From positions 4,175,001 to 4,239,000 of the forward strand of contig NZ_CP098023.1 of the NCBI RefSeq assembly GCF_030440425.1: a stretch of 64,000 bases of DNA. Direction: 5' to 3'. This document shows positions 3,077 to 24,834 of the stretch, piece by piece; position 1 is the stretch's first letter; every line of letters begins with the position of its first letter. This DNA comes from Microbulbifer sp. MI-G (GTDB lineage: Bacteria > Pseudomonadota > Gammaproteobacteria > Pseudomonadales > Cellvibrionaceae). The notes beneath the pieces were generated by a model. That model saw only the letters and a list, made by a program, of their open reading frames with translations, searched no databases and had not been told where the DNA came from. Position numbers and translations under genes: made by a program.

Positions 3077-3102
3077 TGATACAGCACGGCGTCCCTGAAC
3101 CT

Positions 3103-7245: not shown

Positions 7246-7289
7246 ACGCCCACCGGCAGCTCAAGATCCGGTCTGCCGGGTATGGATCC

Positions 7290-7317: not shown

Positions 7318-7534
7318 TGCCTGTGCTGACCGGGCTGATGGTCGGCCTACGGGGCGGACCCTATGCTTCCAAGCGCTGAGCCCAGGGTGGGAGCCGGTTC
7401 CCCGCCTCCCCATAGCAACCCCAGCGGTCAGTGGAATGCGGTAGAACATTTTTTGCTCTTTATGATGAATTTCACGCCAAAAGTGCTAGGCTGAACAATA
7501 GAAGTCTCACCTGCCAACTGGCGTGGAGGTCTCC

Positions 7535-7855: not shown

Positions 7856-7954
7856 CCATGCATTTCTGTGTCTGCCTGGCTGGCACACAAAAGGGGCTTG
7901 GCCCCACCGGCAAAGCCTCCCCGGGGGGAAACTTTGCTTACCGGAGAATGCACT

Positions 7955-8410: not shown

Positions 8411-8637
8411 CATTCAGCGATCCGTGTTCCCAACCCCCCCACCAGTGCGCATCCGCGGTGGTGGGGGTAACAACACAACTATGAGGCCATGGGCAAACAA
8501 AACCCCTGCAGAGAAACCCCTGTCGGGGGTGATTCCGGCCCGATTCCCCGTTTTTCCGCAACTGTTCACGTCACTCCGCTTTCTACTTCCTGACCCTGCG
8601 GGATTCCCAGCCGCGCCATAATCCGGTACCCGGTCCG

Positions 8638-9783: not shown

Positions 9784-9866
9784 TCTTTTTCCTGTTTGCG
9801 TTTTTCTGAGGTTTTACAACCTGCGCATCCATTTCCACCCGGTCACAGGTCTCCAAAGGGTATAGC

Positions 9867-10100
9867 ATGGTACCGGTCAACGCAGCCCTGACGGTCTTTG
9901 CACTGGTGTTCGCCGCCATTGCCTGGCTGCGGCTGCTGCGCATCGGCTTTGCCGATGGCAACCTGAGCGGATTGCTGGCCCTGTTTTTACCACCACTGGC
10001 GCTGTTATTACTCCTGCCCCGTTGGCGCGAAGAGACAGACCTGTTCCTGCTGGCAGGTGCTTCCTGCGGCAGCCTGCTGCTGGGGCAGTGGCTGCAGTGA
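9867..10100 (+). CDS. Small membrane protein, unknown
   Basis: 77-aa ORF with two or three hydrophobic segments (AALTVFALVFAAIAWL, LSGLLALFLPPLALLLLLP and a C-terminal LLAGASCGSLLLGQWL) separated by short charged links. The reading frame is compact and follows the end of the divergent aminopeptidase gene by 83 bases. No family is recognised. Overlapping ORFs exist on the other strand, but the hydrophobic pattern makes this strand the more convincing one. Confidence 0.5.
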   Translation: MVPVNAALTVFALVFAAIAWLRLLRIGFADGNLSGLLALFLPPLALLLLLPRWREETDLFLLAGASCGSLLLGQWLQ

Positions 10101-10203
10101 CTGCTTGTGTCGGGGAAAACCACACCCGGGTTGATCCAGGTCAAGGCGCCCGCGCATCCGGGCCATACACTGTATGGGTAAAAAATTGACGCAGGAGAGA
10201 GAG

Positions 10204-10404
10204 ATGGGAGCTTTAGTGGATCTATTTACCAGCTTTTCCGGCCTGCTCAGCCTGGCCGTTATTGGGTTCATGCTCCTTATGGCGGTTTTCCTGTTTCGCT
10301 GGGTTGGCAACAATGTGAGAAAGTCACTGGCAGAGCAGGAACGCAGGACACAGGGTTCTAAATCCAGCCCCGACAAGCAGACTGACACCGCCGTGTCTCT
10401 CTGA
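10204..10404 (+). CDS. DUF3149-type small membrane protein
   Basis: 66-aa protein MGALVDLFTSFSGLLSLAVI with one transmembrane helix (SLAVIGFMLLMAVFLFRWVG) and a polar C-terminal tail rich in Lys, Ser and Asp. The layout of a short LxDLF(T)xxxGLLSL start followed by a single helix is that of the DUF3149 family of gammaproteobacteria, whose function is unknown. The ATG at 10204 follows AGGAGAGAGAG, a good ribosome-binding site. The longer frame from 10174 would include that site and is rejected. The next 550 bases (10405-10955) carry no gene I can support. Confidence 0.7.
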   Translation: MGALVDLFTSFSGLLSLAVIGFMLLMAVFLFRWVGNNVRKSLAEQERRTQGSKSSPDKQTDTAVSL

Positions 10405-10955
10405 AGCCGAGATCCCTACCTAAGCGGTGCCGTGGTTGCAATGGATTGCGGGCTTATAACCCTGGCAATTCCCGCCACAGCCCGAAAAAAGCCGCAAGCC
10501 AGCTCAAACAAAATACATTGCGCCATTACCGTATGGCATCAACAGGCAAGGGCAGAAGTACCTGTTGTACAAGATCATTCACTCAGGCACATACGCGCAA
10601 AAGCACTGGCCCCGCCTGTGAGACTCCAATTGTTTGGCCAGGGTCACTGCCGGCAACAATGATGGCAAAGAGGAAGTTTAGCAAGCCAAACCGTGCGCTG
10701 CTTAACCTGCGCCCTGAGCATCCCATTGCACGATCACTCCCCGCAACAAGCAGGACCAGCTTACACCTGACCAAAGAGCGTGAATAACAACCAGCCCCCA
10801 CCTTACCCGAGCAGATCACAAGCTGCCTGGATACTATCTTGCCAAGTCAGATTATCGACGTAAACTTCGGACCGACATCTGGACGCAGAAATGCTTCCGA
10901 GAAAGTAATCAGGATATTCGTTACCATGGCGGATAGTATATAAACGCCAAGTCTT

Positions 10956-11351
10956 ATGATCCCAAAAATCGCCATATTTTATCTCATTGTTTTTATTACG
11001 TTGATTACCCTGAGATGGATGCGGCCAAACATTGTCACCCTTGCAGCATTCAGCTGGTTTGGTCCATTTCCAGAGGAAGGAGAGCTTTTGTCCAGCTTTA
11101 AGGCGAAAAGAATAAGGTATGCTTTCGGCTGGATAGTTCAATTTGCAGCCTATTTTTCTCTCTTAACCATTCTTGGCGTCTACTTTAAAAGCTATTTCAG
11201 CGAGACATTTTTTCTCGTAGCCAGCTTTGCAGGAATAATTGGCGGAGGAATGGCGCTTCTAGCCTGTATCGGGTTCTCAGTCTCATGGCTTAAAACTATC
11301 ATTATTGGCCCCAACCCTAAATGTGAGCGCCTGGCAGAATATGAAATATAA
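10956..11351 (+). CDS. Small membrane protein, unknown (first cassette-like gene)
   Basis: 131-aa protein with three likely membrane helices: IPKIAIFYLIVFITLITL at the start, IVQFAAYFSLLTILGVYF in the middle and a long FFLVASFAGIIGGGMALLAC near the end. A polar stretch (FPEEGELLSSFKAKRIRY) lies between the first two. Base composition is clearly AT-richer than genes to the left, marking entry into the accessory region. A 112-aa ORF overlaps on the other strand; the hydrophobic periodicity favours this one. No family is recognised. Confidence 0.6.
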   Translation: MIPKIAIFYLIVFITLITLRWMRPNIVTLAAFSWFGPFPEEGELLSSFKAKRIRYAFGWIVQFAAYFSLLTILGVYFKSYFSETFFLVASFAGIIGGGMALLACIGFSVSWLKTIIIGPNPKCERLAEYEI

Positions 11352-11490
11352 ACTTAACCAAGCCAAACCTTCACCAGCAATGCCGGCTGGGCCTGTACTC
11401 CGCAGCTTCTTTGCTCCATTTCAGCCCGTGTTGGTGGCATTGGTTTTATTCAGTTCAGATCAATAGAGTTTCAGTTGGAAAGTGTTAGAT
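11352..11490 (+). other. Degenerate attC-like site
   Basis: ACTTAAC (11352-11358) fits the RYYYAAC core directly after the stop codon, and GTTAGAT (11484-11490) fits GTTRRRY and overlaps the next ATG. Interior pairing is poor, so the site is called only from position and cores. Confidence 0.35.
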
Positions 11491-12259
11491 GATTGACAAA
11501 AACGGCTATATAAACGTCAGCGGTTCGCCGATGTATTACGAGCTAGCCGGCAACCCTAATGGTGAGCCACTGGTACTGCTGCATGGAGGCCTGGGTTCGA
11601 TCGGCGACCTGACGCCATTGTATAAATATATTGCTCCTGACTATTCATTAATAAGCATGGATTTTCGTGGTCATGGAAAGTCGCCATTGAATGGAGCCTC
11701 GCTGAGTTATGCACAGTACCAGAGTGATGTCCAAGAGGCGCTTTCTCACCTTGGTGTTAAACGGTACTCACTATTTGGTTTTAGTGATGGCGGCATTGTA
11801 GGTTACCGACTGGCGGCACAACAACCAGAGAGCGTTATTTGCTTGATCACACTTGGCTCACAATGGCGTTTAGAAGCTAATGACCCATCTATTGAGCTAT
11901 TGCGTGGCCTAACAGCTGAGTTTTGGGCTGAAAGGTTTCCTGCTGATGTCGATTCCTACAACGCTTCCAATCCAAAACCAGACTTCAAGAAGCTTGTGGA
12001 TGCAGTAAAAGCCGTGTGGCTTGATACTACAGAGTCTGGTTATCCGTGTGATTTGGTCGAAAGCATCACTTGTCCGAGCCTTATTATTCGAGGTGACAAT
12101 GATTTTCTCTTCTCACTCAATGAGGCGGCATTATTAAAAACCAAAATATCCGGTGCTGACTTTGCCAATATTCCATTTACAGAGCATGCCTCTCATCAGG
12201 AGTCACCGGAGTTGGTGGGTACAATTGTGAAACAATTTCTTTCTCAGCAAAAAGCCTAA
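11489..12259 (+). CDS. Alpha/beta-hydrolase fold protein (cassette)
   Basis: 256-aa hydrolase beginning MIDKNGYINVSGSPMYYELA. Oxyanion region LVLLHGGLG is at about 38-46, DFRGHGKS follows, and the nucleophile elbow GFSDGG carries a serine in the GxSxG pattern. The acidic residue is likely in RGDNDFLF and the catalytic His in TEHASHQ, so the triad is complete. The family includes esterases, haloperoxidase-like enzymes and proline iminopeptidase relatives; the substrate cannot be assigned. The gene begins at the end of an attC-like site and stops at another core (GCCTAAC), as expected of a cassette. Confidence 0.88.
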   Translation: MIDKNGYINVSGSPMYYELAGNPNGEPLVLLHGGLGSIGDLTPLYKYIAPDYSLISMDFRGHGKSPLNGASLSYAQYQSDVQEALSHLGVKRYSLFGFSDGGIVGYRLAAQQPESVICLITLGSQWRLEANDPSIELLRGLTAEFWAERFPADVDSYNASNPKPDFKKLVDAVKAVWLDTTESGYPCDLVESITCPSLIIRGDNDFLFSLNEAALLKTKISGADFANIPFTEHASHQESPELVGTIVKQFLSQQKA

Positions 12260-12296
12260 CAAGTACCTAAGAGAGCAGGGGTGACTACCACCCCTG
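12254..12296 (+). other. attC half-site and hairpin
   Basis: GCCTAAC at the hydrolase stop fits the R'' core, followed by a perfect 8-bp hairpin CAGGGGTG/CACCCCTG (12276-12296). No matching GTTRRRY end is found before the dispersed repeat begins at about 12316, so the site looks truncated by that repeat. Confidence 0.4.
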
Positions 12297-12315
12297 ATAT
12301 GCCGAAAATGGCTAC

Positions 12316-13091
12316 GCAGCCGGTAGGAATGCAACTTGGTGTCGCCTAAAGCTTCATATTCATTGCAGTCTTTGCAAAAAGCGCATACCGTAGGTCTGCT
12401 GCCCTAGTGCCCAGCCACTTCACCGGCGCAGTCAAACAATAATAAATAGATAACCAATACCGCAACGATCATTTTTTACCCTGCGAGTCGCCCCATAACG
12501 GCAGCGCCCGCGAGGAATCCATACGCAAAACACATAAACAAAAAAAGGCCGCATCATGACCGCGTAAATGATAGAAAAACGCCACCCCCCGGTGAGGACA
12601 CACCGAGAGATGGCTAACCCCAATAGATAAATAACCTATCTAGCGAGGCTGTCTTGAATGATACGCCATACACTCGTTCGTCTTCAATAAAGGTCTCCCT
12701 GAAGGCGCATTTTCCGAGTCACTCCGGCACCCGGCGGCCGAGTGTGCTATGGCGTTGCGTGATGATTGGTGTGGTCTTTTACTTTAGCCGCGCACCGCCT
12801 TTCTGGCTGCGCGCCCTGCATATTTCCCTTTGTTTTTTTCCACATGGACTACGCCTGCGGCGGGAGAAACCGCACAAAGCGCTGTGCTTTTTCTGCACCT
12901 TTCCGTCACAGGCGACTCAAGGAGCCTATAAAAATGCCTATATTACCCTGTCGATTGTTTCAGCCGGTGGAGCTGGGGGATTATTTTACCTTCACGCTGG
13001 TCGCCATCAAAGAGAACGCCGTAGACCTGCATATTGCGCCCGGTAGGGGTAACCAGGTGATGCGGGCTGTACGATTCCTGCAATGGTTGGA
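12316..13091 (+). repeat. Dispersed ~0.77 kb repeat, copy 1 (with CsrA-like gene)
   Basis: Sequence from GCAGCCGGT (12316) to about 13091 is collinear with 61556-62325, with the same relative spacing to within 6 bases over the first 610 positions. The best conserved block is 12600-12800, around GATGATACGCCATACACTCG-like sequence, and it includes GTGTGCTATGGCGTTGCGTG. The repeat contains a long leader and ends within a small gene (12934-13191). No terminal inverted repeats or transposase are visible, so the means of spread is unknown. Confidence 0.75.
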
Positions 13092-13191
13092 CGAAACCTA
13101 CCCACTGGATGCAGCCTGTGCGCTGGAGGAGGGGCCAATCGAAAAGCCCCCAGCCATTATCAGACCATTCAAGCCGCGACCCGATAAATAG
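12934..13191 (+). CDS. CsrA-like small protein, copy 1 (divergent)
   Basis: 85-aa protein MPILPCRLFQPVELGDYFTF, start preceded by CAAGGAGCCTATAAAA. Its first 44 residues align without gaps to E. coli CsrA (from memory). Shared positions are M1, I3, L4, R7, G15, D16, T19, T21, K26, N28, V30, V42 and R44. Hydrophobic positions 8, 14, 18, 22, 23, 25, 32 and 34 are also kept. L4 and R44 are the residues CsrA uses to bind RNA. CsrA is a dimeric post-transcriptional regulator that blocks translation at GGA motifs. The C-terminal 40 residues have no CsrA counterpart. The CsrA link is an inference from a visual alignment and needs a profile search. A second, shorter copy is at 62168. Confidence 0.6.
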   Translation: MPILPCRLFQPVELGDYFTFTLVAIKENAVDLHIAPGRGNQVMRAVRFLQWLDETYPLDAACALEEGPIEKPPAIIRPFKPRPDK

Positions 13192-13734
13192 ACGGGGCCC
13201 TCAGAGTCAGAGCGAGCGTCTCGAAAACCTGTGCAGCCATAAGCAGCACCGCCAACGCTTACCTTCCTGTGCTGTCACGGCGGGGAGGTCAGCGCAGCCA
13301 ATATGGCAAGCCAGTGCTTTTCTGCGCCGCACTGGTGGTGCTGTAAATACGCAAAGCTTGGTAGCTGCAGGCGGCGCTGCCGTGCCTGTACCGGAAAGGT
13401 GTGTCAACGGGAGAGAGGGAGAACGCTAAGCGATACGCCTATCCGGATAGTGGTGCAGTTTTACAGGCAATATGGCCAGATACGAGCCAGCATTTCGATC
13501 ATTGTGACCGTTATTTTTGAGAGGCGGGTAGCTTTCCCTAAAAAGTGAATAAATCCAATGGGTTACATTCATGGGTGATTTTTGGGATACTGGTCGCAGT
13601 GATCATTATTCCAGGTGGTTCGATAATACCAATTTATCGTATCTGATTGATCCACAGTCATTTTTTAATCGTTTGGCGTGATAAGAATCCAGAAATACTG
13701 GTCATGGTGATCAGTATACAAATGTTAAATACCT
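13192..13734. other. Stretch without supportable gene
   Basis: No ORF here has a convincing start, composition or family match. Two similar 23-base stretches occur at 13587-13609 and 13695-13717 (both ATACTGGTC...GTGATCA). The second forms a hairpin. TTTGGCGTGATAAG near 13673 resembles an attC end GGCGTTA with one change. Confidence 0.4.
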
Positions 13735-14124
13735 ATGAAGCATATCGCGTTGATAGCAACTTTCCTATTTTTGTATGGGTGTGCATTTCCTTACCCTCAC
13801 AACAATTGGAAGACACCCAAATTCACTGGCGTTGTATTAAGTGCAAAGACAGGAGAGCCAGTTGCGGGCGCAAAAGTTTTCTATGAGTCCAAACCAGAGC
13901 TTTATGCAATAACTGATCAAAATGGTTACTACGAGCTGATGCCACAAAAGGAATTCGAGCTTTTTGCTGTGATACTTCCTACGGCACATCCTATACCCAC
14001 AATGTTTAATTTGGTGGCAGTCTCCGAGGCAGGTAGTGCCATAGTTGAAACTGGGTCATGCATTGGCGATCCTGGCTTTGAGTGTAATGGACGCATACGA
14101 GAGGTAAATTTCAGTGTGCAGTAA
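13735..14124 (+). CDS. Lipoprotein with carboxypeptidase-regulatory-like domain (cassette)
   Basis: 129-aa protein starting MKHIALIATFLFLYGCAF, with lipobox FLYGC at residues 12-16. The mature part contains FTGVVLSAKTGEPVAGAKVF, then ITDQNGYYELMP. This is the beta-sandwich pattern of carboxypeptidase regulatory-like (CarboxypepD_reg) domains, often found in secreted or outer-membrane proteins. Two cysteines in GSCIGDPGFECNG could pair. Function is unknown. A clear attC site follows the stop within four bases. Confidence 0.75.
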   Translation: MKHIALIATFLFLYGCAFPYPHNNWKTPKFTGVVLSAKTGEPVAGAKVFYESKPELYAITDQNGYYELMPQKEFELFAVILPTAHPIPTMFNLVAVSEAGSAIVETGSCIGDPGFECNGRIREVNFSVQ

Positions 14125-14127
14125 AGC

Positions 14128-14180
14128 ATTTAACAAGGCGCTGCTGTCGGACAAATTTTTCGCAGAGCGCGGCGTTATAG
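14128..14180 (+). other. attC site
   Basis: ATTTAACAAGGCGCTGCTG opens the site and CAGAGCGCGGCGTTATAG closes it. The outer TAAC/GTTA and inner GCGCT/AGCGC arms pair, leaving extrahelical bases between. This is the best short attC in the array. Confidence 0.75.
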
Positions 14181-14205
14181 CTACCAATAGGATCGAGAGT
14201 ACTTA

Positions 14206-14421
14206 ATGTTCAAACAAATATGGAAAGGCTGGACTACAGCTGTTTCGGTTATCTTTACACCGCTGTTCCTGATTGTTTCCTTAGTTCAACCAAATGCCCC
14301 AGAAAGTATGCTTTTTGCAGCGCCATTGGTTCCTTTCATTGCAGCAGGGCAAGGTGTATTAATTGGGGCGCTTGTTTGTCTTGGTCTCAGGATCTTGGAG
14401 TTTAAAAATCAGTATGGGTGA
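14206..14421 (+). CDS. Small two-helix membrane protein (cassette)
   Basis: 71-aa protein MFKQIWKGWTTAVSVIFTPL with helices about 10-27 (TTAVSVIFTPLFLIVSLV) and 38-62 (APLVPFIAAGQGVLIGALVCLG). It lies between two attC sites, which defines it as a cassette gene. No family is recognised. A shorter overlapping frame at 14220 is judged to be a shadow. Confidence 0.6.
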   Translation: MFKQIWKGWTTAVSVIFTPLFLIVSLVQPNAPESMLFAAPLVPFIAAGQGVLIGALVCLGLRILEFKNQYG

Positions 14422-14430
14422 CATAAGCTC

Positions 14431-14507
14431 TAACAAGGCACTGTTGTTGCAGCCTTCGGCTGCTGGGACAGCCCACTTCTTGGCCCGCCCCAAAGTTTGG
14501 TGTTATT
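14431..14507 (+). other. attC site
   Basis: Starts TAACAAGGCACTGTTG just after the previous stop and ends TTTGGTGTTATTC. A central hairpin GCAGCC TTC GGCTGC is present. Confidence 0.65.
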
Positions 14508-14536
14508 CATCAGCGCAACTCTAAACTGAGGAAAAT

Positions 14537-15001
14537 ATGGAGATTAAAGTAGACGATTTAACAGATCCAAGAATTGCCGATTTTTTGGAGGAGCACATAA
14601 GTGATATGAAATCGGTTTCTCCCCCTGAAAGTAAGCATGCATTGGACCTTGATGCATTAAAGGAGCCAGATATTACCTTCTGGTCTGTTTGGCAACAAGG
14701 TGACCTCATTGGGTGTGGTGCCATCAAGGAGCTTGATAAAACGCACGGTGAGATAAAATCCATGCGCACCTGCTCCTCAAAGCGTGGTTCTGGTATTGGT
14801 GCGTCTCTTCTAAAACACATTCTTGATGAGGCAGCACTAAGGGGTTATGAAAGGGTCAGTTTAGAAACGGGTTCAATGCCCTTCTTTGATCCAGCTCGTA
14901 AACTATATAGCAAATTCGGGTTCAATTTCTGCCAACCATTCGCTGACTATAAACTAGATGCCAATAGCGTCTTTATGGAGCTGAAACTACCAAATGCATA
15001 A
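14537..15001 (+). CDS. GNAT-family N-acetyltransferase (cassette)
   Basis: 154-aa protein starting MEIKVDDLTDPRIADFLEEH. The acetyl-CoA binding loop has the GNAT pattern SSKRGSGIGASLLKHIL (motif A, R/Q-x-x-G-x-G/A) at about 92-108. It is followed by VSLETGSMPFFDPARKLYSK and a C-terminal FGF typical of the fold. Such enzymes transfer acetyl groups to small amines, antibiotics or protein N-termini; the acceptor is unknown. Acetyltransferases are common integron cargo. The stop codon is part of the following attC core. Confidence 0.88.
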   Translation: MEIKVDDLTDPRIADFLEEHISDMKSVSPPESKHALDLDALKEPDITFWSVWQQGDLIGCGAIKELDKTHGEIKSMRTCSSKRGSGIGASLLKHILDEAALRGYERVSLETGSMPFFDPARKLYSKFGFNFCQPFADYKLDANSVFMELKLPNA

Positions 15002-15090
15002 CAAGGCCAAGCAGGATCATGCAATGCAAAAAGCGCATTGTACTGGACGGCCTACACTGCGTTTCGTCCGCCCATGTTGGCAGCATTAAA
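14999..15090 (+). other. attC-like site
   Basis: TAACAAGGCCAAGCAGG overlaps the stop of the acetyltransferase; the other end reads GGCAGCATTAAAA, one change from GCGTTAAA. The interior GGACGGCCTACACTGCG and CCGCCCATG recur in the site at 16191-16289, tying both to one attC family. Confidence 0.55.
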
Positions 15091-15102
15091 AGGTATTTTA
15101 AA

Positions 15103-15822
15103 TTGAAGCTCGTGCTATTGCCAGGATTGGATGGAACAGGGATATTATTTGAGACAGTGCTTCCTGAACTAGGTGAAATGAATGTTGTGAGTTTTCCCTT
15201 GCCTCATGATATTTCACAAGATTATGAGTCACTGTCTAATCATGTGGCACAAAGGCTTCCTGATGAAGATTTTATCCTTGTAGCAGAATCCTTCTTTGGT
15301 GGTATTGCGGCTGTTCTTTCGCGCAAAGAAATTCCACGTCTCAAGGGAATAATATTCTTAGCTTCATTTCTATCTGCACCGAAACAGCTCTTGGCACGTT
15401 TATGTTCACATCTTCCTATTGGGTACTTCGCGAGGCTCCCGTTATCTGGCGTTATTCATCGTTTGTTTTTCCTGGGCTGGGCTGCAGAGGACAACGAGAT
15501 TGCATTGTTTAAGCGCGCAATAAAGGCCGCTCCTAATGGTGTGCTCAAAGCTAGGCTCAACGTAATTGCAAAGTGCCAATATGTTGGTTTTAGGTCAACT
15601 GTACCAACAGTGTATATTGGTGCCTCTAACGGTATGCTGATTCCGCCTCATATGAGGGAAAATTTCAAAGAAGCGTATCCGGGTGTTGAAATTACTGAGA
15701 TTGAAGGGCCTCATTTTATGCTTCAGGCTCAGCCAAAGGTTAGCGCAGCTGCAATTATCGAGGTAGCACACCTTTTAATAAGTAAAGGCACTGGACGCAA
15801 CAAAGCTGCGCCCGTGCTTTAG
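15103..15822 (+). CDS. Alpha/beta-hydrolase family protein (cassette)
   Basis: 239-aa protein if started at TTG 15103, reading LKLVLLPGLDGTGILFE. The frame remains open upstream, but that part lies in the attC site. PGLDGTG is the oxyanion-hole region. VAESFFGG (AESFFG, GxSxG-like with Ala first) is the nucleophile elbow, and EGPHFMLQ carries the candidate catalytic His. Family members include thioesterases and lipases; substrate is unknown. AAGG lies 8-11 bases before the TTG. The C-terminus runs into the next attC site, so its last residues are recombination-site sequence. Confidence 0.75.
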   Translation: MKLVLLPGLDGTGILFETVLPELGEMNVVSFPLPHDISQDYESLSNHVAQRLPDEDFILVAESFFGGIAAVLSRKEIPRLKGIIFLASFLSAPKQLLARLCSHLPIGYFARLPLSGVIHRLFFLGWAAEDNEIALFKRAIKAAPNGVLKARLNVIAKCQYVGFRSTVPTVYIGASNGMLIPPHMRENFKEAYPGVEITEIEGPHFMLQAQPKVSAAAIIEVAHLLISKGTGRNKAAPVL

Positions 15823-15831
15823 GCGTTAAAT
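15797..15831 (+). other. Short attC-like site
   Basis: GCAACAAAGC pairs loosely with GCTTTAGGCGTTAAAT. GTTAAAT is a perfect GTTRRRY core, three bases before the next ATG. The 5' core is GCAAC rather than TAAC and lies inside the hydrolase gene. Confidence 0.5.
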
Positions 15832-15833
15832 GT

Positions 15834-16196
15834 ATGCGCACGATAGAAGAAATATACAAGGAAGTAGAGTCAACACCTGATTTTTCGGGGCATAAGATTT
15901 CTTTTGCCAACTATAGGAATGACTATGGGGATACCCCACTTCACATAGTCTGTAACTGGGGTGATTGCGAAGCGATTCAAGCATTGGTGTCTGAGGGCGC
16001 TGATCTAAACGCAATTGGTGAAACTGGCTTTACCCCTTTACACTGTGCTGCCGAGCAAAATAAGCCTGAAGTAATCAATCTGCTTATTAAACTTGGCGCT
16101 CAAATTGTTACAAATACAAACGGTGAAACACCGGTAGAGCTAGCTCAATATCTAGGTTGCATGGAGGCAGTCAGTGCATTCAACCAAAACATTTAA
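15834..16196 (+). CDS. Ankyrin-repeat protein (cassette)
   Basis: 120-aa protein with two clear ankyrin repeats: YGDTPLHIVCNWGDCEAIQA followed by GADLNAIGE, and GFTPLHCAAEQNKPEVINLL followed by GAQI. A third partial unit begins NGETPVELAQYLG. Ankyrin repeats mediate protein-protein contact; the partner is unknown. There is no signal peptide, so it is probably cytoplasmic. It is flanked by attC sites on both sides. Confidence 0.88.
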   Translation: MRTIEEIYKEVESTPDFSGHKISFANYRNDYGDTPLHIVCNWGDCEAIQALVSEGADLNAIGETGFTPLHCAAEQNKPEVINLLIKLGAQIVTNTNGETPVELAQYLGCMEAVSAFNQNI

Positions 16197-16289
16197 CCAT
16201 GCGCAGCATTCGCCCGCAAAGAGCGCGGTCTGGGACGGCCTCCACTGCGCCTTGCTTCGTTTCGGCCGCCCATGTGCGCGACGTTATAT
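16191..16289 (+). other. attC site
   Basis: ATTTAAC at the ankyrin stop fits RYYYAAC; the far end is GCGCGACGTTATAT. The interior carries GGGACGGCCTCCACTGCG and GGCCGCCCATGTGCGCG, paired arms related to those at 14999-15090. Confidence 0.7.
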
Positions 16290-16314
16290 TTTCGCAGGAT
16301 AGCCCGCACTTGCT

Positions 16315-16733
16315 ATGAGAAAAATAGTTCGATCACCCCTTATGATGCATTTAAAAAAGGTAGAACCCATGGTTTTGGTCTACTGCTAGATGCTGTACTG
16401 AATGATCCGCACAAAATAAGAGTTATAGTTGTCGATAATCCAGAGGTACTGTTTTAGACTTGCTGGATTGGAGAAAATGTCCTGCACTGATTGGCCGTCG
16501 AGAATAAGCATGAAGAAATTCGCTTGTTGAGAAGCTTGGTTTCACCTATACCTCAGTATGCTTTAGTTGAAGCTGTCGAGCAAAAGCTTTCTGAAACAAT
16601 TATTACTTTACTAGAGTTCGGCGCAGAAGTTATCCCCAGTGAAATCACGAGGGCACTAAACAATGAGTACTTTAGCCATAGTAAAAAATCGCTTGTTCGG
16701 CGGCACTTTATCCAGTTCAGGTATGAAATATAA
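16315..16733 (+). pseudogene. Broken cassette gene, frameshifted
   Basis: Protein-like sequence is split over frames. HGFGLLLDAVLNDPHKIRV and VIVVDNPE stand in one frame up to a TAG at 16455. A neighbouring frame then reads VLDLLDWRKCPALIG. The first frame resumes at about 16491 with AVENKHEEIRLLRSLVSP and continues to the stop at 16731. Two compensating shifts would restore one ORF of about 130 residues. The later part (ALVEAVEQKLSETIITLLEF, GAEVIPSE) has the helix-turn-helix spacing of ankyrin-like repeats, so it may be a relative of the gene before it. The true start is unclear; ATG 16315 or an upstream codon inside the attC site are possible. Confidence 0.5.
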
Positions 16734-16790
16734 CATTCAAAGGCATGGGATAAAGTGCTGCGCACTTCACCCATACTTTAAACGTTATGA
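16731..16790 (+). other. attC site
   Basis: TAACATTCAAAGGCATGGG opens and CCCATACTTTAAACGTTATG closes the site, with a perfect internal hairpin AAGTGC TGC GCACTT. Both cores abut genes. Confidence 0.65.
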
Positions 16791-16814
16791 TTTAAGCTAA
16801 TTGAGATTTGTTCT

Positions 16815-17294
16815 ATGAGAAAAATAATAATTCTTCTATATTCTACCATGCTTTCAGGCTGTGTTGCGTTACTACTTGCACCTGCTGTTATGAAAGCCAA
16901 TGGGGATCACTTCAAAGAATTGGAGTCACCGTCCATCAATATGGGTGCGGTCTATATCTTTAGAAAGTTCAAATTAGTTGCATCGATTTACTGCCAACCA
17001 TTTTCCATAAATGGGGAAAGAACCTCCTGCCTAAGAAATGGTGGATATATAAGACTGGAACTACAACCCGGTGAGCATGTTATTGGCTTTCCTAAGCGCG
17101 CTCTAGAGTTTGGTGAAGGTTTTGAGCAGAAAATTCTGGTAATTGGGGGCAAAACAAGTTTCTACGAATGGGGTACAGATATAGATAATATAAATTCTGT
17201 TGGAACCTCTACAAGCATGACATTTGTTGAATTTTTGATCGGACATACACAAGAATCGGCAGTTGCAATTTTAAAGGATCTAAGAAAATCATAA
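16815..17294 (+). CDS. Lipoprotein, DUF2846-like (cassette)
   Basis: 159-aa protein MRKIIILLYSTMLSGCVALL with lipobox MLSGC at about 12-16. The mature part contains AVYIFRKFKLVASIYCQPFS, then LQPGEHVIGFPKR and KTSFYEWGT. The order of a YIFR strand, a small-molecule-like beta region and LxPGxH resembles DUF2846-type periplasmic lipoproteins. That link is tentative and function is unknown. The stop overlaps the next attC core. Confidence 0.7.
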   Translation: MRKIIILLYSTMLSGCVALLLAPAVMKANGDHFKELESPSINMGAVYIFRKFKLVASIYCQPFSINGERTSCLRNGGYIRLELQPGEHVIGFPKRALEFGEGFEQKILVIGGKTSFYEWGTDIDNINSVGTSTSMTFVEFLIGHTQESAVAILKDLRKS

Positions 17295-17398
17295 CAAGAC
17301 GTTGCAGAACGACGCCCAAAGCCGTGTGCCTTTTGTGGTACAAGTTTAGCGACCACAAACGGCGCTCAACTTTGGCTGCAGCTGAACGCAGCGTTTTG
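17292..17398 (+). other. attC-like site (long)
   Basis: TAACAAGACGTTGCAG opens and CTGAACGCAGCGTTTTGC closes the site. The interior has arms CCAAAG.../...CTTTGG and TTTGTGGT/ACCACAAA that fold on each other. The far core is GTTTTGC, less typical. Confidence 0.55.
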
Positions 17399-17418
17399 CA
17401 TAAGGAGGAACATCGGCA

Positions 17419-17805
17419 GTGAAATGGATTTTGATCCTACTTTTTAATTTAACTCTTCTGGGCTGTTCTTTTTTGAATAACCCCTCAAAAGTGGTTGTTC
17501 TTAGAAAATCCGCCTACGATCATTGCCAAGCAACCTATAGCAATGAATTGGATCGAGCAAAGTGCATCAATCAAAAATACCTGCAAATATCTAAAGAGCA
17601 TGGCATTCCATACCAAGATATCACCGAAATATCTAATGCAGTTCGTTTGAGCTTGGCATCCAAAATTGTGTCTAACTCTATCAGTCAAGAGCAAGCTAAA
17701 ATAGCAATGGCTGGTGCTGGCTACATCCTAGATGCCGAGGAAGAAAATCGTAAGTACGCTAAAGGGGCTTACCCTAAAGAAAAGTGGCAAAGTCAGAATC
17801 AATAG
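17419..17805 (+). CDS. Small lipoprotein, unknown (cassette)
   Basis: 128-aa protein starting at GTG 17419 after AAGGAGGAA (17402-17410), an excellent ribosome-binding site. MKWILILLFNLTLLGCSFL gives a signal peptide with lipobox TLLGC. The rest is helical and polar, with cysteines at about 34 and 48 (DHCQATYSNELDRAKCINQK) that could pair. It ends in a charged tail. No family is recognised. Confidence 0.7.
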   Translation: MKWILILLFNLTLLGCSFLNNPSKVVVLRKSAYDHCQATYSNELDRAKCINQKYLQISKEHGIPYQDITEISNAVRLSLASKIVSNSISQEQAKIAMAGAGYILDAEEENRKYAKGAYPKEKWQSQNQ

Positions 17806-17887
17806 ATAGTAAAAATCAATAACGCAAACTTACCAATACAGTGCATTAAAGAGGCGGGCAATGTACTCTGTAGATAAAGGCGATCAA

Positions 17888-17942
17888 TAGCGCCTGCGGC
17901 TGGACAAAGCACTGCGTGCTTTGTCCATTACCTTGGCGTTAG
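17888..17942 (+). other. attC site
   Basis: TAGCGCC and GGCGTTA pair with one mismatch around a perfect 11-bp hairpin GGACAAAGCAC TGC GTGCTTTGTCC. It lies about 80 bases after the previous stop and 12 before the next ATG. Confidence 0.65.
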
Positions 17943-17953
17943 AAGTCATCATT

Positions 17954-18625
17954 ATGTATCGATCCTTATGGATAATTTTTGTAACTGCATTCTTTTATTG
18001 TTGCTCTTTGAATCAAGAGAAACTTGCAGGAGAGTCCATATATTTCAAGCATAAAAATGATGATGTGTTCTGGGAAAATATTGTGGGCTATGGCAGATTT
18101 CAGAAGGAAGTTCTCCAGAAGCCTACATCTGTATATCACAGTGCCTTCGGTCATGGTTACTGTATGTCTGAAGAAGTAACATTTGAGGCCAAGAAATACC
18201 TTAAGGGAACTGGCTCTGATCTTATAGAGTTTGCACAAAACAAAATCGATTATTATCGCCCAATCGCTGAGGATATTGGATTTAGCGAGGCTGTACTATT
18301 TCTTTCAAAAAATGAGCATCGCGGAATATGGTCTACCCGTAGTGTAAGAATTGATAACTTTGAAGGAGAGTCTCGCATTTACAGGCCAATTGACATTATG
18401 CATTTTCTATCCTTTGAAAATTTAGAATCTCTGCATATAGAGTACAAAGAACCTTTTGAGTGGGGTGTAGAAATTGGCTTATTATCAGAACAAAACCTCG
18501 ACAAACTGAAGGGCAAGGGCATTTTGTCTTATCGGCCAGATCCGCAGGACAAAAATGGTAACTTATACCTATTAGAAATGTATAAATATATTAGTGTTGA
18601 GGCACTGCTAAGCAATGATTTCTAA
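17954..18625 (+). CDS. Hypothetical exported protein (cassette)
   Basis: 223-aa protein starting MYRSLWIIFVTAFFYCCSLN, a hydrophobic leader ending in a possible lipobox (FYCC). The mature part is acidic and aromatic, with no motif I recognise. AVLFLSKNEHRGIWSTRSVR is a well-ordered segment. The frame opens at 17921, but ATG 17954 gives the leader and follows the attC end. The stop codon is part of the next attC core. Confidence 0.65.
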   Translation: MYRSLWIIFVTAFFYCCSLNQEKLAGESIYFKHKNDDVFWENIVGYGRFQKEVLQKPTSVYHSAFGHGYCMSEEVTFEAKKYLKGTGSDLIEFAQNKIDYYRPIAEDIGFSEAVLFLSKNEHRGIWSTRSVRIDNFEGESRIYRPIDIMHFLSFENLESLHIEYKEPFEWGVEIGLLSEQNLDKLKGKGILSYRPDPQDKNGNLYLLEMYKYISVEALLSNDF

Positions 18626-18712
18626 CAAGTCAATCAACTTCTCGCCTTCGGCGCCGGACAGCTTACACTACACTTCGCTTTGTTCAAGTTGCCGATTTTT
18701 TTAGGCGTCAAA
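18623..18712 (+). other. attC-like site
   Basis: TAACAAGTCAATCAACTTC overlaps the previous stop; the far end TTTTTTAGGCGTCAAAAG differs from GCGTTA by one base. Interior hairpin GCCTTCGGCGCC. Confidence 0.5.
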
Positions 18713-18717
18713 AGTCT

Positions 18718-19029
18718 ATGGAAAATCTGATCTGTCCAAGCTGCAAGGGTGTAGCCGTAACAAAGGTTAAAAAATTAAAGGTTGCCTTTCTGGGTGGCGC
18801 TTTGCGATGTAGATTATGCGGGGAACAAATAAAGGTTGGCGGAAGCTTACTTGCAACTATTGCCGGTGCTGGCGCAGGCAGTGCTGCTTTATACGTTGCT
18901 CTTTACTCGTTAAAGATTGGATCTTGGTTTCCAATAGTTAGTGTCTTCGTTGTGGGTTGGACCTTTGCAGGTTTGGCCATATACCTTTCTGGATTAAAAC
19001 ACGTTGGCACAAAAAGGTTTCGTTTTTAG
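18718..19029 (+). CDS. Zinc-ribbon membrane protein (cassette)
   Basis: 103-aa protein MENLICPSCKGVAVTKVKKL. CPSC (residues 6-9) and CRLC (31-34) form a probable zinc ribbon. Two membrane helices follow, LLATIAGAGAGSAALYVALY and FPIVSVFVVGWTFAGLAIYL, and then a basic tail. Zinc-ribbon-plus-TM proteins are common but functionally unassigned. It is flanked by attC-like sequence. Confidence 0.7.
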   Translation: MENLICPSCKGVAVTKVKKLKVAFLGGALRCRLCGEQIKVGGSLLATIAGAGAGSAALYVALYSLKIGSWFPIVSVFVVGWTFAGLAIYLSGLKHVGTKRFRF

Positions 19030-19037
19030 ACCGGAAC

Positions 19038-19092
19038 CTTTAACAAGCGTAGGCACAGGATGCAGCAAAGCCTCGTCCATACTTTACACGTG
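19038..19092 (+). other. Degenerate attC-like site
   Basis: CTTTAACAAGCGTAGG follows the zinc-ribbon gene. The far end may be CTTTACACGTGATG, which lacks a good GTTA core. Called mainly from position. Confidence 0.35.
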
Positions 19093-19446
19093 ATGAACCA
19101 AACCATGATTGGAACAATCAGTACATTTCTGGTATTTTTATCTTTTAAAAATCCAGGTGAAGAAGATATACCAGTATGGCAATATACGATTCCGGGTTCG
19201 TCATATATTCAAGGTCAATACAGTGAAGAAACTAATCCAATAATTGCGAGGGTATCTTTTAGTAAAGAGGGAGATGTACTGGCTATTGACTTCTTAAGAA
19301 AAAGCACTCTTCCTGAATTGAATGAAGAAGCCAAACAAAATATTCTGAATGAGTCTCCATTCCCAGAATTTAGCGATATGTCTGAAGAGGAAAAAAATCA
19401 TCAGTTGGTAAAAATGATTTATGCAGTACCTTGCAAGAGCCCATAA
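19093..19446 (+). CDS. TonB C-terminal-domain-like small protein (cassette)
   Basis: 117-aa protein, start placed at ATG 19093 (MNQTMIGTISTFLVFLSF, a hydrophobic leader); the frame is open from 19060. The core PIIARVSFSKEGDVLAIDFL, then LPELNEEAKQNILNESPFPEF, matches the TonB_C pattern: a strand with small residues, a turn with G-x-V, a strand, a helix with A-hxxh, then SPFP. TonB domains pass proton-motive energy to outer-membrane receptors. A free-standing one in a cassette could be an adaptor or decoy, but that is conjecture. Confidence 0.6.
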   Translation: MNQTMIGTISTFLVFLSFKNPGEEDIPVWQYTIPGSSYIQGQYSEETNPIIARVSFSKEGDVLAIDFLRKSTLPELNEEAKQNILNESPFPEFSDMSEEEKNHQLVKMIYAVPCKSP

Positions 19447-19545
19447 TAAAGGAATCTTGCAGTGCTTATTTAGCGGTATGGACAAATTGACGCGCTTTGC
19501 ACCAAAAACAACTTGCCGAAAATTACGGTGTTGTGCAACTATATG

Positions 19546-19856
19546 AATTATCAAAATATACACAAGAAAGTAAAGTATGTTTGTCTGGCGTTGTTTCCGG
19601 TTGGTTTCATTTTCGGAGGGATCGCCGAAATTCCACATAATACAGAACGAGCAGCTAACTACTTTTTTTCGTTGGAGCGACATTCATGGTCTCATACTGC
19701 TTAAATGGTATTGAAAGAGGGGAAATTGAGCTGCTTTCTTATGCAGACAAACTCGATAAGAGGAGAGAACCTGTGCTCTTTTGGTTATTTGTTTCGAGTG
19801 TTTTGATCTGCTCAGTTATAGCGGCACCAGTTTTATTGTACAGAGTATTTGCATAA
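19546..19856 (+). pseudogene. Membrane protein split by a poly-T frameshift (cassette)
   Basis: The first frame (ATG 19546, MNYQNIHKKVKYVCLALFPV) has a membrane helix CLALFPVGFIFGGIAE and runs to TAA at 19702. At a run of seven T (19663-19669) the next frame takes over with FFVGATFMVSYCLNGIERGE and a final helix PVLFWLFVSSVLICSVIAAP, ending at TAA 19856. One extra T, or a -1 ribosomal shift, would join them into one protein of about 103 residues with three helices. The downstream part alone is a 56-aa ORF from ATG 19686. It could be a real mutation, a homopolymer sequencing error or programmed slippage. An attC half-site (TAACAAGCG) overlaps the last stop. Confidence 0.6.
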
Positions 19857-20220
19857 CAAGCGACTGTGATCCAAAGTCAACCCAGAAAGATGTTTTGCCC
19901 CAAAACCATTTAAACAGTACACCACTCGCAATTGTTCTTAACCATGGTGTTCAGAATTGTCATAATTTTTTGTATACAAGCAGTCTAAGAACAACTTCAA
20001 GATTATCTAAAATCGGAGCACGGGCAATTACCCATTTAGCCAGAGGGCGATCTATTTTCTGACCTTCAAATAGACGATGAAGACTTTGAATATGGCCTAG
20101 TGCAGGAAATCTCGGAAAGTACTGGTCGCTCTCTGAACAATGCAGAAAACACTCCCTATTATGGGCAGGCAAACACTGTAAGGAACCTTGTTTATTTTTT
20201 TAATAAGCAGCCTGCAGAAA
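19854..20220. other. End of array; no gene seen
   Basis: TAACAAGCGACTG begins at the last cassette stop, but no closing GTTA arm is found. The following 360 bases contain only short, unconvincing ORFs. This marks the right edge of the accessory region before the autotransporter. Confidence 0.45.
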
Positions 20221-20250
20221 AAGCGCCCGTTGCAGATGCAACGGGCGCTT
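20216..20250 (-). terminator. Rho-independent terminator of the autotransporter gene
   Basis: On the minus strand a perfect 14-bp stem AAGCGCCCGTTGCA/TGCAACGGGCGCTT with a two-base loop is followed directly by TTTTT. It lies 12 bases after the stop at 20263. Confidence 0.9.
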
Positions 20251-20262
20251 GTGCTTCGGTGG

Positions 20263-22518
20263 TTAGAAACGGTAGCTCACACTGATAGCGCCGGTTTCGG
20301 AAGTGGGGCGCGCAGTCAGGTTGGCGCTGACGTCAATGGCACTGGCCAACTGCCAGCGCAGGCCGACCTGGGCCCCGGCGCCGTCCTCGAACAGGCCGGT
20401 GTCGGTGCTGTCATAGCTGGGCATGGCGTTCATATTCCCCTCTATGGATTTCACTCCAACCTCCAGCGAGTCGGTTTCATTGCCGGTGGTGTCTTCATAC
20501 CAGATCTGGCCGTAGGCACTGACCGAGTTCCAGTCCATGCTGGCAAAGGCGCCGACGCGCATGGTGGTATAGCGGCGCTCCTGGGCGCCAAAACTCATGC
20601 CGAAGGGGTCGCGCTCGACACCGCTGGCGTCAGTGTAGGTAAAGCCGCTTATGGCATCTTCGCTGTATGCATCCACCTTCACCCTGGTCTGGGTGGCGTT
20701 AGCGAAGGGGCCAAACTGCGCTGCACCGGTGGAGAGGTTCACCCCGCCAGTAAGGCTGAGGGACAGACTTTCACCGCCGGTGCTGGCATCGAGGCTCTGG
20801 TTGAAACTGCTGCCCAAACGCAGGTTGCGCGATATGCGGTCGTAATCCATATCGGTGAGGGTGGCGCTGGCGTCGATGAAAAATATGTCGTGGTGGAAGC
20901 GCCCGAACAGGCTGTAGTTGGTTGCGGTGGATTCCACGGCGGACAGGCTGTTGTCTGCCTCCATGTCGCTGCGACTCAGGGCAAAGCCCACTTCGGCATT
21001 GTCGCGCAGGGCGTAAGTGGCCCCGATCAGCCCCCCGCTGCCGTCGCCGCTGGCAGCCAGGCCCAGGCTGCCATCGTAATCGTTCTCGCCAAACACACCG
21101 CTCACAAATACTTCACTGTGTGCGTCGCGGTAGCGGCTGCCCAGCAGACGGGCGTCCAGGGTGTTGGTATGGGTGCGGGCGGCCTGCACATTCAAGTCGG
21201 GCAATTGGCCGGCAACCTGGGCGGCGTTCACCACTGCGGTATAGTAGTCGGCCAGTAAATTCTGACCCACCTGGGTTGGGTGTATTCCGTCATTGAAAAG
21301 TAATCTGGCGTCGTTCGGATCGCTGCCGCTGATACCGTACACCGGGTGTTCGATACAGTCGCCGCCGCTGCCGTCATAACAGAATCTGCTCTGGTCCAGG
21401 TCTGGCGACAAGCCAAATGCGGCGGCGTTGGCGAGCGATACCTGAAGCACGCCGAACTGGTCCACTATCAGTACGCCATCTATATCCCGGGCGGCGCTGA
21501 CCAGCGTCTGGTTGAAGGCGTTGCTGGCGGCGCCAGCCCCAGCCAGGGTATTTTGGATGGCGCCGTCCAGTTGCGCCTGGGCCTCCTCCGCAGTAATCAA
21601 CCCTGCGGCCACGGCATTTTGCAGTTGTGCCGCCTCGGCACTGCCGGCGACAGCAGCACTGACCGCTGCGAACAGCCCCGGAGTTTTGCTTACGTCGGGC
21701 ACATTGGACACCAGGATATAGTTGGCACCGGCATCCGACAGGGCACCGGCGGCATCCGCCAGTATATTCGCGGCAGTGTTGATGTCGGCTGTGTATTGGC
21801 CGTCGTCGATGGTGTTGGAGAGGAGTGCGCCGAAACCGCCGATCAGGTCGTTGCCACCGCCATTGACCCAGTAGAGCGCCTTAGGGTCTGCACGGCCAAA
21901 TGTGGTTTCCAGGTAACCGAGACCCAGGGGGTGGGGGTTGCCGGTGATGCCGGAGTCGGCCACGATGGCCGCCAGTGCCGCGTCATCGCCCTGAAGAAAC
22001 AATCCCAGCTGTTCCAGGTCAGGGTAGAGCCCGGTGCTGGTTTCGCGCGTTGGGTCAGGCAGCAGTGCGCTGACAAAGTTGTGGGCGTCAACGTCGAGGG
22101 TCATACCGTTTTGGGACAGGTAGTTCAAGTAACCCCGGGTGCCGAGAATGTTCAACAGCACGTCGGCGGTGTGATGGCCACCGACGGCCCAGCCGCCGCC
22201 CACATTGGGCAGGGCGGCCTGGACTTGCGCCTGGGCGGAGGCGAGCAGCTCCGCTTCACTGAGGCTGGGGTCCACCTCCGGCAGGCAGAGATTGAGGTCG
22301 GCACAGGAGGGCGTGAGCGGTCCCAGGCCCAGTTGCTGGGACATAATGCTGATGGCAGCCTGTTTGTTGTCGCCACTGGTAAAGATACCGGCGTTGCCCA
22401 CATCGGTGAGGCTATCGCCGAAGGCGACCACCTGGCTGAAAGGGGACTCCTGGGCATAGGCGGTGGATGCACATACGAGGGCGATTGCCGCCGCGAGGCT
22501 GCGCTTGGCATTGGACAT
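20263..22518 (-). CDS. GDSL esterase/lipase autotransporter (EstA-like)
   Basis: 751-aa protein starting MSNAKRSLAAAIALVCASTA with a signal peptide cleaved near AYA-QE (residues 20-24). The GDSL domain follows: block I VAFGDSLTDVGN with S36, block III WVNGGGNDL with the oxyanion Asn, block V DGIHPT with catalytic Asp and His. It spans to about residue 465. An Ala-rich helical linker leads to a C-terminal beta-barrel of about 270 residues ending in Phe (AISVSYRF), the mark of an outer-membrane autotransporter. EstA-type proteins display the esterase on the cell surface. ATG 22518 is chosen because CAGGAGAGAATT precedes it and the signal peptide begins there; an upstream frame to 22644 is not needed. 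Confidence 0.93.
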   Translation of the reverse strand: MSNAKRSLAAAIALVCASTAYAQESPFSQVVAFGDSLTDVGNAGIFTSGDNKQAAISIMSQQLGLGPLTPSCADLNLCLPEVDPSLSEAELLASAQAQVQAALPNVGGGWAVGGHHTADVLLNILGTRGYLNYLSQNGMTLDVDAHNFVSALLPDPTRETSTGLYPDLEQLGLFLQGDDAALAAIVADSGITGNPHPLGLGYLETTFGRADPKALYWVNGGGNDLIGGFGALLSNTIDDGQYTADINTAANILADAAGALSDAGANYILVSNVPDVSKTPGLFAAVSAAVAGSAEAAQLQNAVAAGLITAEEAQAQLDGAIQNTLAGAGAASNAFNQTLVSAARDIDGVLIVDQFGVLQVSLANAAAFGLSPDLDQSRFCYDGSGGDCIEHPVYGISGSDPNDARLLFNDGIHPTQVGQNLLADYYTAVVNAAQVAGQLPDLNVQAARTHTNTLDARLLGSRYRDAHSEVFVSGVFGENDYDGSLGLAASGDGSGGLIGATYALRDNAEVGFALSRSDMEADNSLSAVESTATNYSLFGRFHHDIFFIDASATLTDMDYDRISRNLRLGSSFNQSLDASTGGESLSLSLTGGVNLSTGAAQFGPFANATQTRVKVDAYSEDAISGFTYTDASGVERDPFGMSFGAQERRYTTMRVGAFASMDWNSVSAYGQIWYEDTTGNETDSLEVGVKSIEGNMNAMPSYDSTDTGLFEDGAGAQVGLRWQLASAIDVSANLTARPTSETGAISVSYRF

Positions 22519-22744
22519 AATTCTCTCCTGTCGCGTATTTCTAGCGACCCCGGCAATTTGGCAAATGGCTCCGGAGGAGGCCGAGTTGGACGGGGCACAC
22601 TGTAATCGTGACAGAATGCTACCAACCTGAACTTCGATTTTCATCTTTTTCCCGCCGTAAAATCACTGCAGATTTCACTGGTGGTGATTTGACTTTCGAT
22701 ACCGGACTGCTCCTCCTGAGAGAGTGCGACCAAAAGTTAGGACT

Positions 22745-24078: not shown

Positions 24079-24834
24079 TTATCCTCCTTCCGCCGGGGTT
24101 TTACCGGGGCTCGATTTTACCCAGCGCCCAAAAAGAATGCCCACCTCAAACAACAGCCACATAGGCAGGGCCAGCAGGGATTGGGAAATCACATCCGGTG
24201 GTGTCAGCAGCATACCGATCAGAAAACATCCCACAATTACATAGGGGCGTTTTTGCGCCAGCACCTTGGCGTCCACCGCACCACTCCAGATCAGCAGCAC
24301 GGTTGCAATGGGAATTTCAAAGGCGAAACCGAAAGCAAAGAACAGCTTCAGCACCAGGTCGAGGTAACTGCGCATATCCGGCATGACCTTGATATCCGCA
24401 GGTGCCGCCCCCACAAAGAAATCAAATAAAATGGGGAATACCACAAAGTAGGCGAAGGCAATGCCCGCATAAAAAAGCACTACGCTGGTCATCAGGATCG
24501 GGATGGCTATCCGTTTTTCATTCTTGTACAGGCCGGGGGCGATAAAGGCCCAGGCCTGATACAGTACAAACGGGATGGCAATAAAGAAAGCCAGGATAAA
24601 TGTGGTTTTAAACGGGGTCAAAAAAGTGGAAGTCACTTCTGTGGCTATCATTCCCGCATCGCCAAGCAACCTACCCTGCAATGGATTGGCAATATAATCG
24701 TAAATCTCCGCAGCAAAAGGCACCATGCCGGCGAATAAGATCACCACCACCAACAGGATGCGCAGCAGACGGTCTCGCAACTCAATCAGGTGGTCAATAA
24801 ACGGCTGGTGACTGTCCGGTGGCTGATCGCTCAT
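24079..24834 (-). CDS. tatC: Twin-arginine translocase subunit TatC
   Basis: 251-aa polytopic inner-membrane protein with six helices. MSDQPPDSHQPFIDHLIELR begins with the conserved HLxELRxR signature. Further family marks are LTPFKTTFILAFFIAIPFVL, APGLYKNEKR and FAFGFAFEIP. TatC binds the twin-arginine signal of folded cargo and docks it to TatB/TatA. It is the last gene of a leftward tatA-tatB-tatC run, two bases after tatB. Confidence 0.97.
   Translation of the reverse strand: MSDQPPDSHQPFIDHLIELRDRLLRILLVVVILFAGMVPFAAEIYDYIANPLQGRLLGDAGMIATEVTSTFLTPFKTTFILAFFIAIPFVLYQAWAFIAPGLYKNEKRIAIPILMTSVVLFYAGIAFAYFVVFPILFDFFVGAAPADIKVMPDMRSYLDLVLKLFFAFGFAFEIPIATVLLIWSGAVDAKVLAQKRPYVIVGCFLIGMLLTPPDVISQSLLALPMWLLFEVGILFGRWVKSSPGKTPAEGG

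Follow-up and report, generated by a model that had tools for sequence, protein, structure and literature searches.

Integrons are defined by a trio of parts, the integrase gene intI, the attI site and attC sites, and sedentary chromosomal integrons hold chromosomal cassettes, mostly of unknown function, with attC sites typical of their genus. Cassettes are also found at attG sites, which are places without an integron platform and are not known to be attI homologues. Closer to the case described here, the parts of PMC9892861 available to us report a Shewanella prophage, M16-3, in which a cluster of attC sites lacking integron integrases (CALIN) starts with an attI and which also holds a complete integron with IntI. 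The available parts of PMC12901181 describe delta-attI-type cassettes, with attI-derived sequence lying within arrays of class 1 and class 2 integrons, and mention attG sites. Here we examine a 64-kb stretch of a Microbulbifer genome (G000), analysed in full and called the window, in which the segment at 10.9–19.9 kb is probably an integron cassette array that lacks an integrase, has an attI of its own and is one of numerous bare pads where cassettes could land.

attC sites and cassettes in the window

The original prediction for this region, made from the sequence alone, read 10950..19863 as an orphan cluster of attC sites separating short, same-strand, AT-richer genes. An attC covariance model (CM) was built from 17 attC sites, taken from intI-linked arrays of other Microbulbifer genomes and none of them from the window (of the 59 reference attCs, 18 are ≤100 letters long, and one near-duplicate was left out). 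Searched across the whole window on both strands at E ≤ 10, the model gave six matches, all on the + strand within 14130–18711 (best E = 1.8e-7), confirming a cassette array with attC sites; this was the check that the prediction had proposed, and the matches lie above background. With filters off, 10400–20300 gave eight matches at E < 0.004, starting at 14130, 14430, 14998, 15775, 16193, 16730, 17291 and 18622, and five more at E = 1.1–9. A two-block matrix from the 59 attCs of relatives produced five matches scoring ≥20 in the region, on the + strand, where 60 Markov shuffles predict 0.72 in 64 kb, and three of the five beat the top shuffle score of 33.9; the single other window match ≥20 is at 45120 on the − strand, outside the region. 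An early search for attC by arm pairing gave a symmetric, uninformative result and was superseded by the matrix and the covariance model.

The window contains 10 copies of the motif TAACAAG (shuffle mean 5.3; two of 100 shuffles reach 10), eight of them in the region and all eight on the + strand, and GC content falls from about 0.59 to 0.38–0.49, with an exception of 0.55 at 12501–13500, in agreement with the predicted gene character. Two spacers are 76–81% identical to elements of L048, an intI-linked array in another Microbulbifer genome (G045). The predicted spacer form, TAACAAG to GCGTTA, proved to be attC; some cores are mutated (GCATTA, GCGTCA), and weak or partial junctions lie near 12257, 17822–17942, 19040 and 19854. 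The reported span likewise held as cassettes except for 12292–13456, which is a dispersed csrA-like element, and an orphan attC cluster alone does not describe it, as two attI sites had been overlooked (13456–13727 and a relic at 10882–10944). The array has two segments, each with an attI at its head. The first (10882–12263) consists of the decayed attI and two cassettes; the second joins the csrA-like element to another attI (12292–13727) and goes on with about eleven further cassettes. The parts are, in order (ORF, open reading frame; aa, amino acids):

10882..10944, +, relic of a decayed attI, lacking the crossover GTTA, preceding the first cassette
10956..11351, +, cassette ORF, 131 aa, no Pfam family
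11350..11442, +, attC-like element, decayed; 76–78% to two elements of L048, no covariance model match
11489..12259, +, cassette ORF, alpha/beta hydrolase, 256 aa (PF00561); TAACAAG at its end (12257) without a complete attC found
12292..13456, +, dispersed csrA-like element, multi-copy in G000 and the related genome G039, mostly 77–87%
12551..12691, +, predicted structured 5' RNA of the csrA-like element (RNAalifold, 32 sequences)
12934..13191, +, putative CsrA-like ORF, 85 aa
13456..13727, +, attI region, intact-looking, crossover core 13699–13727
13735..14124, +, cassette ORF, CarboxypepD_reg-like, 129 aa (PF13715, under its cut-off)
14130..14178, +, attC, CM 39.6 bits, E 1.4e-6
14206..14421, +, cassette ORF, 71 aa, with a related cassette in array L171 of G000
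14430..14506, +, attC, CM 21.1 bits, E 0.0025, filters off
14537..15001, +, cassette ORF, GNAT acetyltransferase (PF00583)
14998..15089, +, attC, core mutated to GCATTA, CM 31.6 bits
15103..15822, +, cassette ORF, hydrolase-like (PF12697 under its cut-off, scanned from 15019; start picked 3' of the attC)
15775..15829, +, attC, CM 43.7 bits, E 1.8e-7
15834..16196, +, cassette ORF, ankyrin repeats (PF12796)
16193..16287, +, attC, CM 37.1 bits
16491..16733, +, probable remnant cassette ORF, 80 aa
16730..16788, +, attC, CM 20.3 bits, E 0.0037, filters off
16815..17294, +, cassette ORF, DUF2846-like (PF11008 under its cut-off)
17291..17397, +, attC, CM 32.3 bits
17419..17805, +, cassette ORF, 128 aa, no Pfam family
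17954..18625, +, cassette ORF, no Pfam family (scanned from 17921; start picked at ATG)
18622..18711, +, attC, core mutated to GCGTCA, CM 24.4 bits; 81% to an element of L048
18718..19029, +, cassette ORF, zinc-ribbon-like (PF03966 under its cut-off)
19060..19446, +, cassette ORF, TonB_2-like (PF13103 under its cut-off)

One cassette recurs elsewhere in G000: window 14172–14439 is 80% identical to a cassette of L171, in a match that begins at the cassette junction and stops 10 nucleotides (nt) into the next attC, the rest of which differs from that in L171. The ratio of nonsynonymous to synonymous substitution rates (dN/dS) for its 71-aa ORF is 0.13 (one pair). A search for protein relatives of the window cassettes in ten intI arrays gave two weak matches (28–32%), and PADLOC gave matches for one of ten cassette ORFs, both ankyrin-related by position.

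attI sites and absence of a detected integrase

The attI region at 13456–13727 heads the array, as in a complete integron. Its part at 13456–13613 is 70–71% identical to DNA adjoining intI in G030 and G045, 13694–13728 is 91% identical to intI-adjoining DNA of G030, and the region aligns with the intI-adjacent attIs of G008, G012, G030, G036, G045 and G009. Within it are copies of a dyad like ATACTGGTCATGGTGATCAGTAT, and its end reads ATACAAATGTTA, immediately 5' of the cassette ORF at 13735. The alignment comprised 13 of 15 chosen sites; locus L020 and the window relic at 10882..10944 were not picked up by the core pattern at 6 mismatches. The relic is 79% identical over 63 nt to another attI copy in G000 (E = 2.5e-7).

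No IntI above the TIGR02249 cut-off was found in a profile search of the whole of G000 (4.48 Mb, 2 contigs, 99.99% complete), the genome-wide search that the original prediction had called for; it supports the predicted CALIN character, with at least two clustered attC sites (six matches; eight at E < 0.004 with filters off) and no integron integrase nearby. The top match to the IntI model in G000 scores as Xer-like, in two pieces that skip model positions 183–237, and an intI gene with the IntI-specific region, as in a complete integron, was not found. PF00589 marks nine tyrosine-recombinase places in G000, eight above its cut-off. A tblastn search with 20 IntI translations from the genus yielded nothing convincing as an IntI remnant in the window (best E = 0.072 there and 0.053 in locus L034). 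The idea of some intI genes running in reverse was discarded, since the loci in question had not been brought into one orientation. IntI above the cut-off is present in 42 of 48 Microbulbifer genomes, G000 being among the 48. The six without it are G000, G039, G018, G025, G034 and G042, of which G018 and G042 hold intI fragments and G034 is to be read with its 80% completeness. G039 is the closest relative of G000 (flanking aminopeptidase 89% identical; next best 73%).

Dispersal of attI and its carriers

A 29-nt attI core pattern, allowing up to 3 mismatches, was searched in the 48 genomes with the reversed pattern as control. It found 91 sites in 14 genomes and the control none; 25 sites are in G000, 40 in G039 and 1–4 in each of 12 other genomes, and four of the 91 adjoin an intI gene or fragment by coordinates (G030, G009, G036, G024). 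Among the 20 attC matches listed for G000, taken from the 150 of 847 candidates that were scored, 17 lie ≤6 kb downstream of a same-strand attI (random-place mean 0.22). Conversely, 13 of 22 chromosomal attI sites of G000 have an attC match within 6 kb downstream. Of the 25 core-pattern sites, 22 lie in the loci retrieved for the comparison. In cluster L172, attI sites follow one another at intervals of 0.66–1.5 kb, separated by ORFs and, in places, by attC sites. By eye, a cassette end TAACAAG at about 7505–7576 of L169 runs into an attI core and looks like an attC/attI hybrid; it is one candidate in G000 for a delta-attI-type cassette, in which an attI piece takes the place of attC at the 3' end, none having been noticed in the window.

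Ten proteins scanned around the G000 attI clusters L169, L171 and L172 are prophage-type. They are a holin and two endolysins, an O-like replication protein, a DnaB-like helicase, two Q-like proteins (E = 7e-4 and 1e-6), an HNH endonuclease and, at a distance of about 8–14 kb from the clusters, two phage integrases. Five of the 25 core sites (506694, 254557, 3785855, 4188699 and 4406758), the window's own attI included, come after a csrA-like or csrA gene. Exact matches to a degenerate core pattern were found in three IMG/VR contigs, each with at least one attC match: L255 has a head-decoration gene, attI, a cassette-like ORF, an attC match (E = 0.006) and, further on, a tail-terminator gene; L256 has attI after head genes and one attC match downstream; and L254 has attI about 2.6 kb past a tail gene, followed by three attC matches. 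No IntI over the cut-off was found in these records, which may be fragments.

The csrA-like element

The element at 12292–13456 occupies the spot where intI would be expected. Its relatives from named sources are all Microbulbifer (six of 13 matches are unnamed, and there are two further Microbulbifer), and its copy numbers are lower bounds, with 7 of 52 leader candidates scored in G000 and 7 of 54 in G039. Of 17 other copies examined, 16 keep the 85-aa ORF intact, and dN is lower than dS in each of the nine comparisons without gaps. That the ORF is CsrA-like is suggested by a profile alignment to CsrA from the first residue (hhalign probability 35.8, E = 3.8e-4); in a PDB profile search an unrelated chain (E = 1.1) ranked ahead of a CsrA homologue (only E = 1.5), and three members of the family had no Pfam match at E ≤ 10. 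Matches to the CsrA domain PF02599 in G034 score 11.9–17.7 bits, three falling within 150 nt of leader matches.

The predicted 5' RNA, folded with one of 33 leader regions (L245) omitted, is also predicted 5' of csrA paralogues in other genomes. Compensatory change appears in five of its pairs, for the most part between two groups of sequences. Rfam gave no match to 12551–12691 up to E = 5; at gathering scores it found only tRNA in the window, and 12250–13760 gave two weak miRNA-family matches. A predicted structured RNA also lies upstream of csrA-like or csrA genes of several Microbulbifer genomes, at L139–L144, L177, L208, L246, L247 and L251–L253. A second, truncated leader copy lies near the right end of the window (61556–62316, +; L175), with an attI-like remnant just past it (G000 contig C1, 4239811–4239969, −). 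Listed PF02599 matches over the cut-off number 18 in G029, 12 in G045, 10 in G000 and 9 in G039. The G034 genome had 49 first-look candidates for the leader core (7 scored), yet attI of this type was not found in it, at its 80% completeness.

Insertion site and turnover between sister genomes

The array lies between two conserved genes:

10174..10404, +, DUF3149 gene, conserved left flank (Pfam PF11346, synteny)
24079..24834, −, conserved right flank, which we take from its sequence to be tatC (80–88% amino acid identity to nine relatives)

In all nine relatives examined (L035–L043) the DUF3149 gene is followed by tatC across a gap of about 0.3–1.4 kb with no array between, and the attC model at E ≤ 1 had no match in these nine loci; in G000 about 13.7 kb separates the two genes, and the insertion that holds the array amounts to about 13 kb. 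Similarity between G039 and G000 reaches window 10872, after which the DNA differs, and the attI core of G039 itself sits about 275 nt past that point. The gene order, whose fixation in relatives the original prediction had named as the contrary outcome, therefore varies, with no array in nine of nine relatives and a difference after attI in G039. Beside the array, the insertion holds a GDSL autotransporter gene (20263–22644, −) of host-like GC content, EstP-like and far under its model cut-off. A repeat of 100–130 nt occurs at window 23858–23991, L170 3772–3870 and L153 6539–6671, the latter two in regions that hold attI or cassettes.

Three attI loci shared by G000 and G039 were compared, these being the ones found and not a full census. 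At the 506-kb locus of G000 and its counterpart on G039 contig C10, G000 155–3223 matches G039 1–3141 (94%, then 79%) up to the attI GTTA, where similarity ends, and the right flanks match again (G000 5252–9000, G039 9789–13474; 85%). Between these flanks lie 2.0 kb in G000 and 6.6 kb in G039, with no blastn or tblastx match between them at 1e-3; both stretches carry attC matches. At the window locus and at 3.786 Mb of G000 (G039 contig C19), the match breaks off at attI or slightly ahead of it, and the stretches compared past it showed no similarity.

Discussion

Most likely, IntI built the array, though none is found in the genome now. The recombinase would insert cassettes singly just past the attI GTTA and excise them, attC sites would mark the cassette ends, and IntI would either once have been encoded at the locus and then lost, or have been supplied in trans. 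As the attI unit, without intI, is found at no fewer than 25 places in G000, among them prophage-like regions and positions behind csrA-like elements, these places look like bare landing pads, which suggests that such pads can spread without an integrase. From the sequence relations we infer recombination: IntI would have made the insertions, perhaps acting in trans, and prophages and csrA-like elements would have carried the sites about. A broader account, somewhat less likely than not, is that in a Microbulbifer lineage attI has turned into a mobile pad, carried without intI by prophages and csrA-like elements, which would take up cassettes as cargo amid head, tail and lysis genes via a host IntI in trans; attI would have multiplied to 25–40 copies per genome and outlasted the host integrase.

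Several observations weigh against the main reading, of an attI-headed array as one of many landing pads. Several attC cores in the window are mutated (GCATTA at 15089 and GCGTCA at 18710 among them) and the first attI is decayed. Three of the 20 listed attC matches have no nearby attI, nine of 22 chromosomal attI sites have no attC match within 6 kb, and the attC matches come from the 150 of 847 candidates that were scored. Three of 13 csrA-like copies lack attI, carriers were examined for part of the 25 G000 sites, and the IMG/VR records are possibly fragments. For the window and 3.786-Mb loci no common right flank was found in the limited stretches compared. As no intI was detected in either G000 or G039, cassette exchange after their split would need IntI in trans, late loss or homologous recombination.

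It is somewhat unlikely that the array is an ordinary decaying CALIN, severed from a chromosomal integron when DNA was deleted or rearranged, with attI sites that are dead leftovers, spread by repeat or prophage duplication and not serving as landing pads. The mutated cores, the decayed first attI, the probable remnant ORF, the lack of intI and the csrA-like copies without attI all fit such decay, whereas the three shared loci found showed no similarity among cassettes past attI, and 17 of the 20 listed attC matches come after an attI. The differences past attI might also come from homologous recombination among attI or leader copies and not from IntI; 25–40 similar copies per genome would permit this and neither genome has a detected intI, but the 506-kb locus keeps both flanks while the stretch after attI differs, and one cassette recurs in another array from its junction, and we regard this explanation as unlikely.

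Regulatory or phage operator sites, lying ahead of cassettes by chance, could have the form of attI-like palindromes without being recombination sites, given the almost perfect dyad of the core and the position of some sites, in prophage-like regions, close to genes for lysis and Q-like proteins. Homology to DNA directly adjoining intI in several genomes, and similarity that stops at GTTA at the 506-kb locus, make this very unlikely. That the cluster is an island of small genes spaced by chance TAACAAG motifs and has no integron origin is scarcely credible: short, AT-rich, same-strand genes are found in islands too and the GDSL autotransporter shares the insertion, but the covariance model matches contradict it, as does the matrix, and spacers are 76–81% similar to elements of an intI-linked array.

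If the reading of an integrase-less array with its own attI as one of many landing pads is true, attI can spread alone and phages can load cargo by it; the origin of some CALINs would be explained, and cassettes would have a way to pass from bacteria to phages and back. Genome-wide multiplication of attI was not met in the accessible parts of the literature searched, nor were so many attI sites in genomes without intI; an attI-headed prophage CALIN and delta-attI cassettes were met there and stand as precedents. Like CALINs as portrayed in the available parts of PMC9892861, the window array has several attC sites, same-strand cassettes and no nearby integrase, but it is headed by attI, and its genome has many such attI-headed places. 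The M16-3 CALIN of that source is likewise attI-headed and lies in a prophage, with an IntI integron there, whereas here no intI was found and there are 25–40 sites per genome. The delta-attI2 core AATAAAATGTTRRRY, as given in the available parts of PMC12901181, resembles ATATAAATGTTA of the Microbulbifer site; the delta-attI cassettes described there are mostly short attI pieces replacing attC in integrons of known classes, whereas in G000, in which no intI was found, whole arrays begin with attI regions. Sedentary chromosomal integrons share the cassette and attC traits of this array and differ from it in the intI that was not found here. With attG sites the array shares cassettes that lie off any integron platform, but the sites in Microbulbifer are attI homologues.

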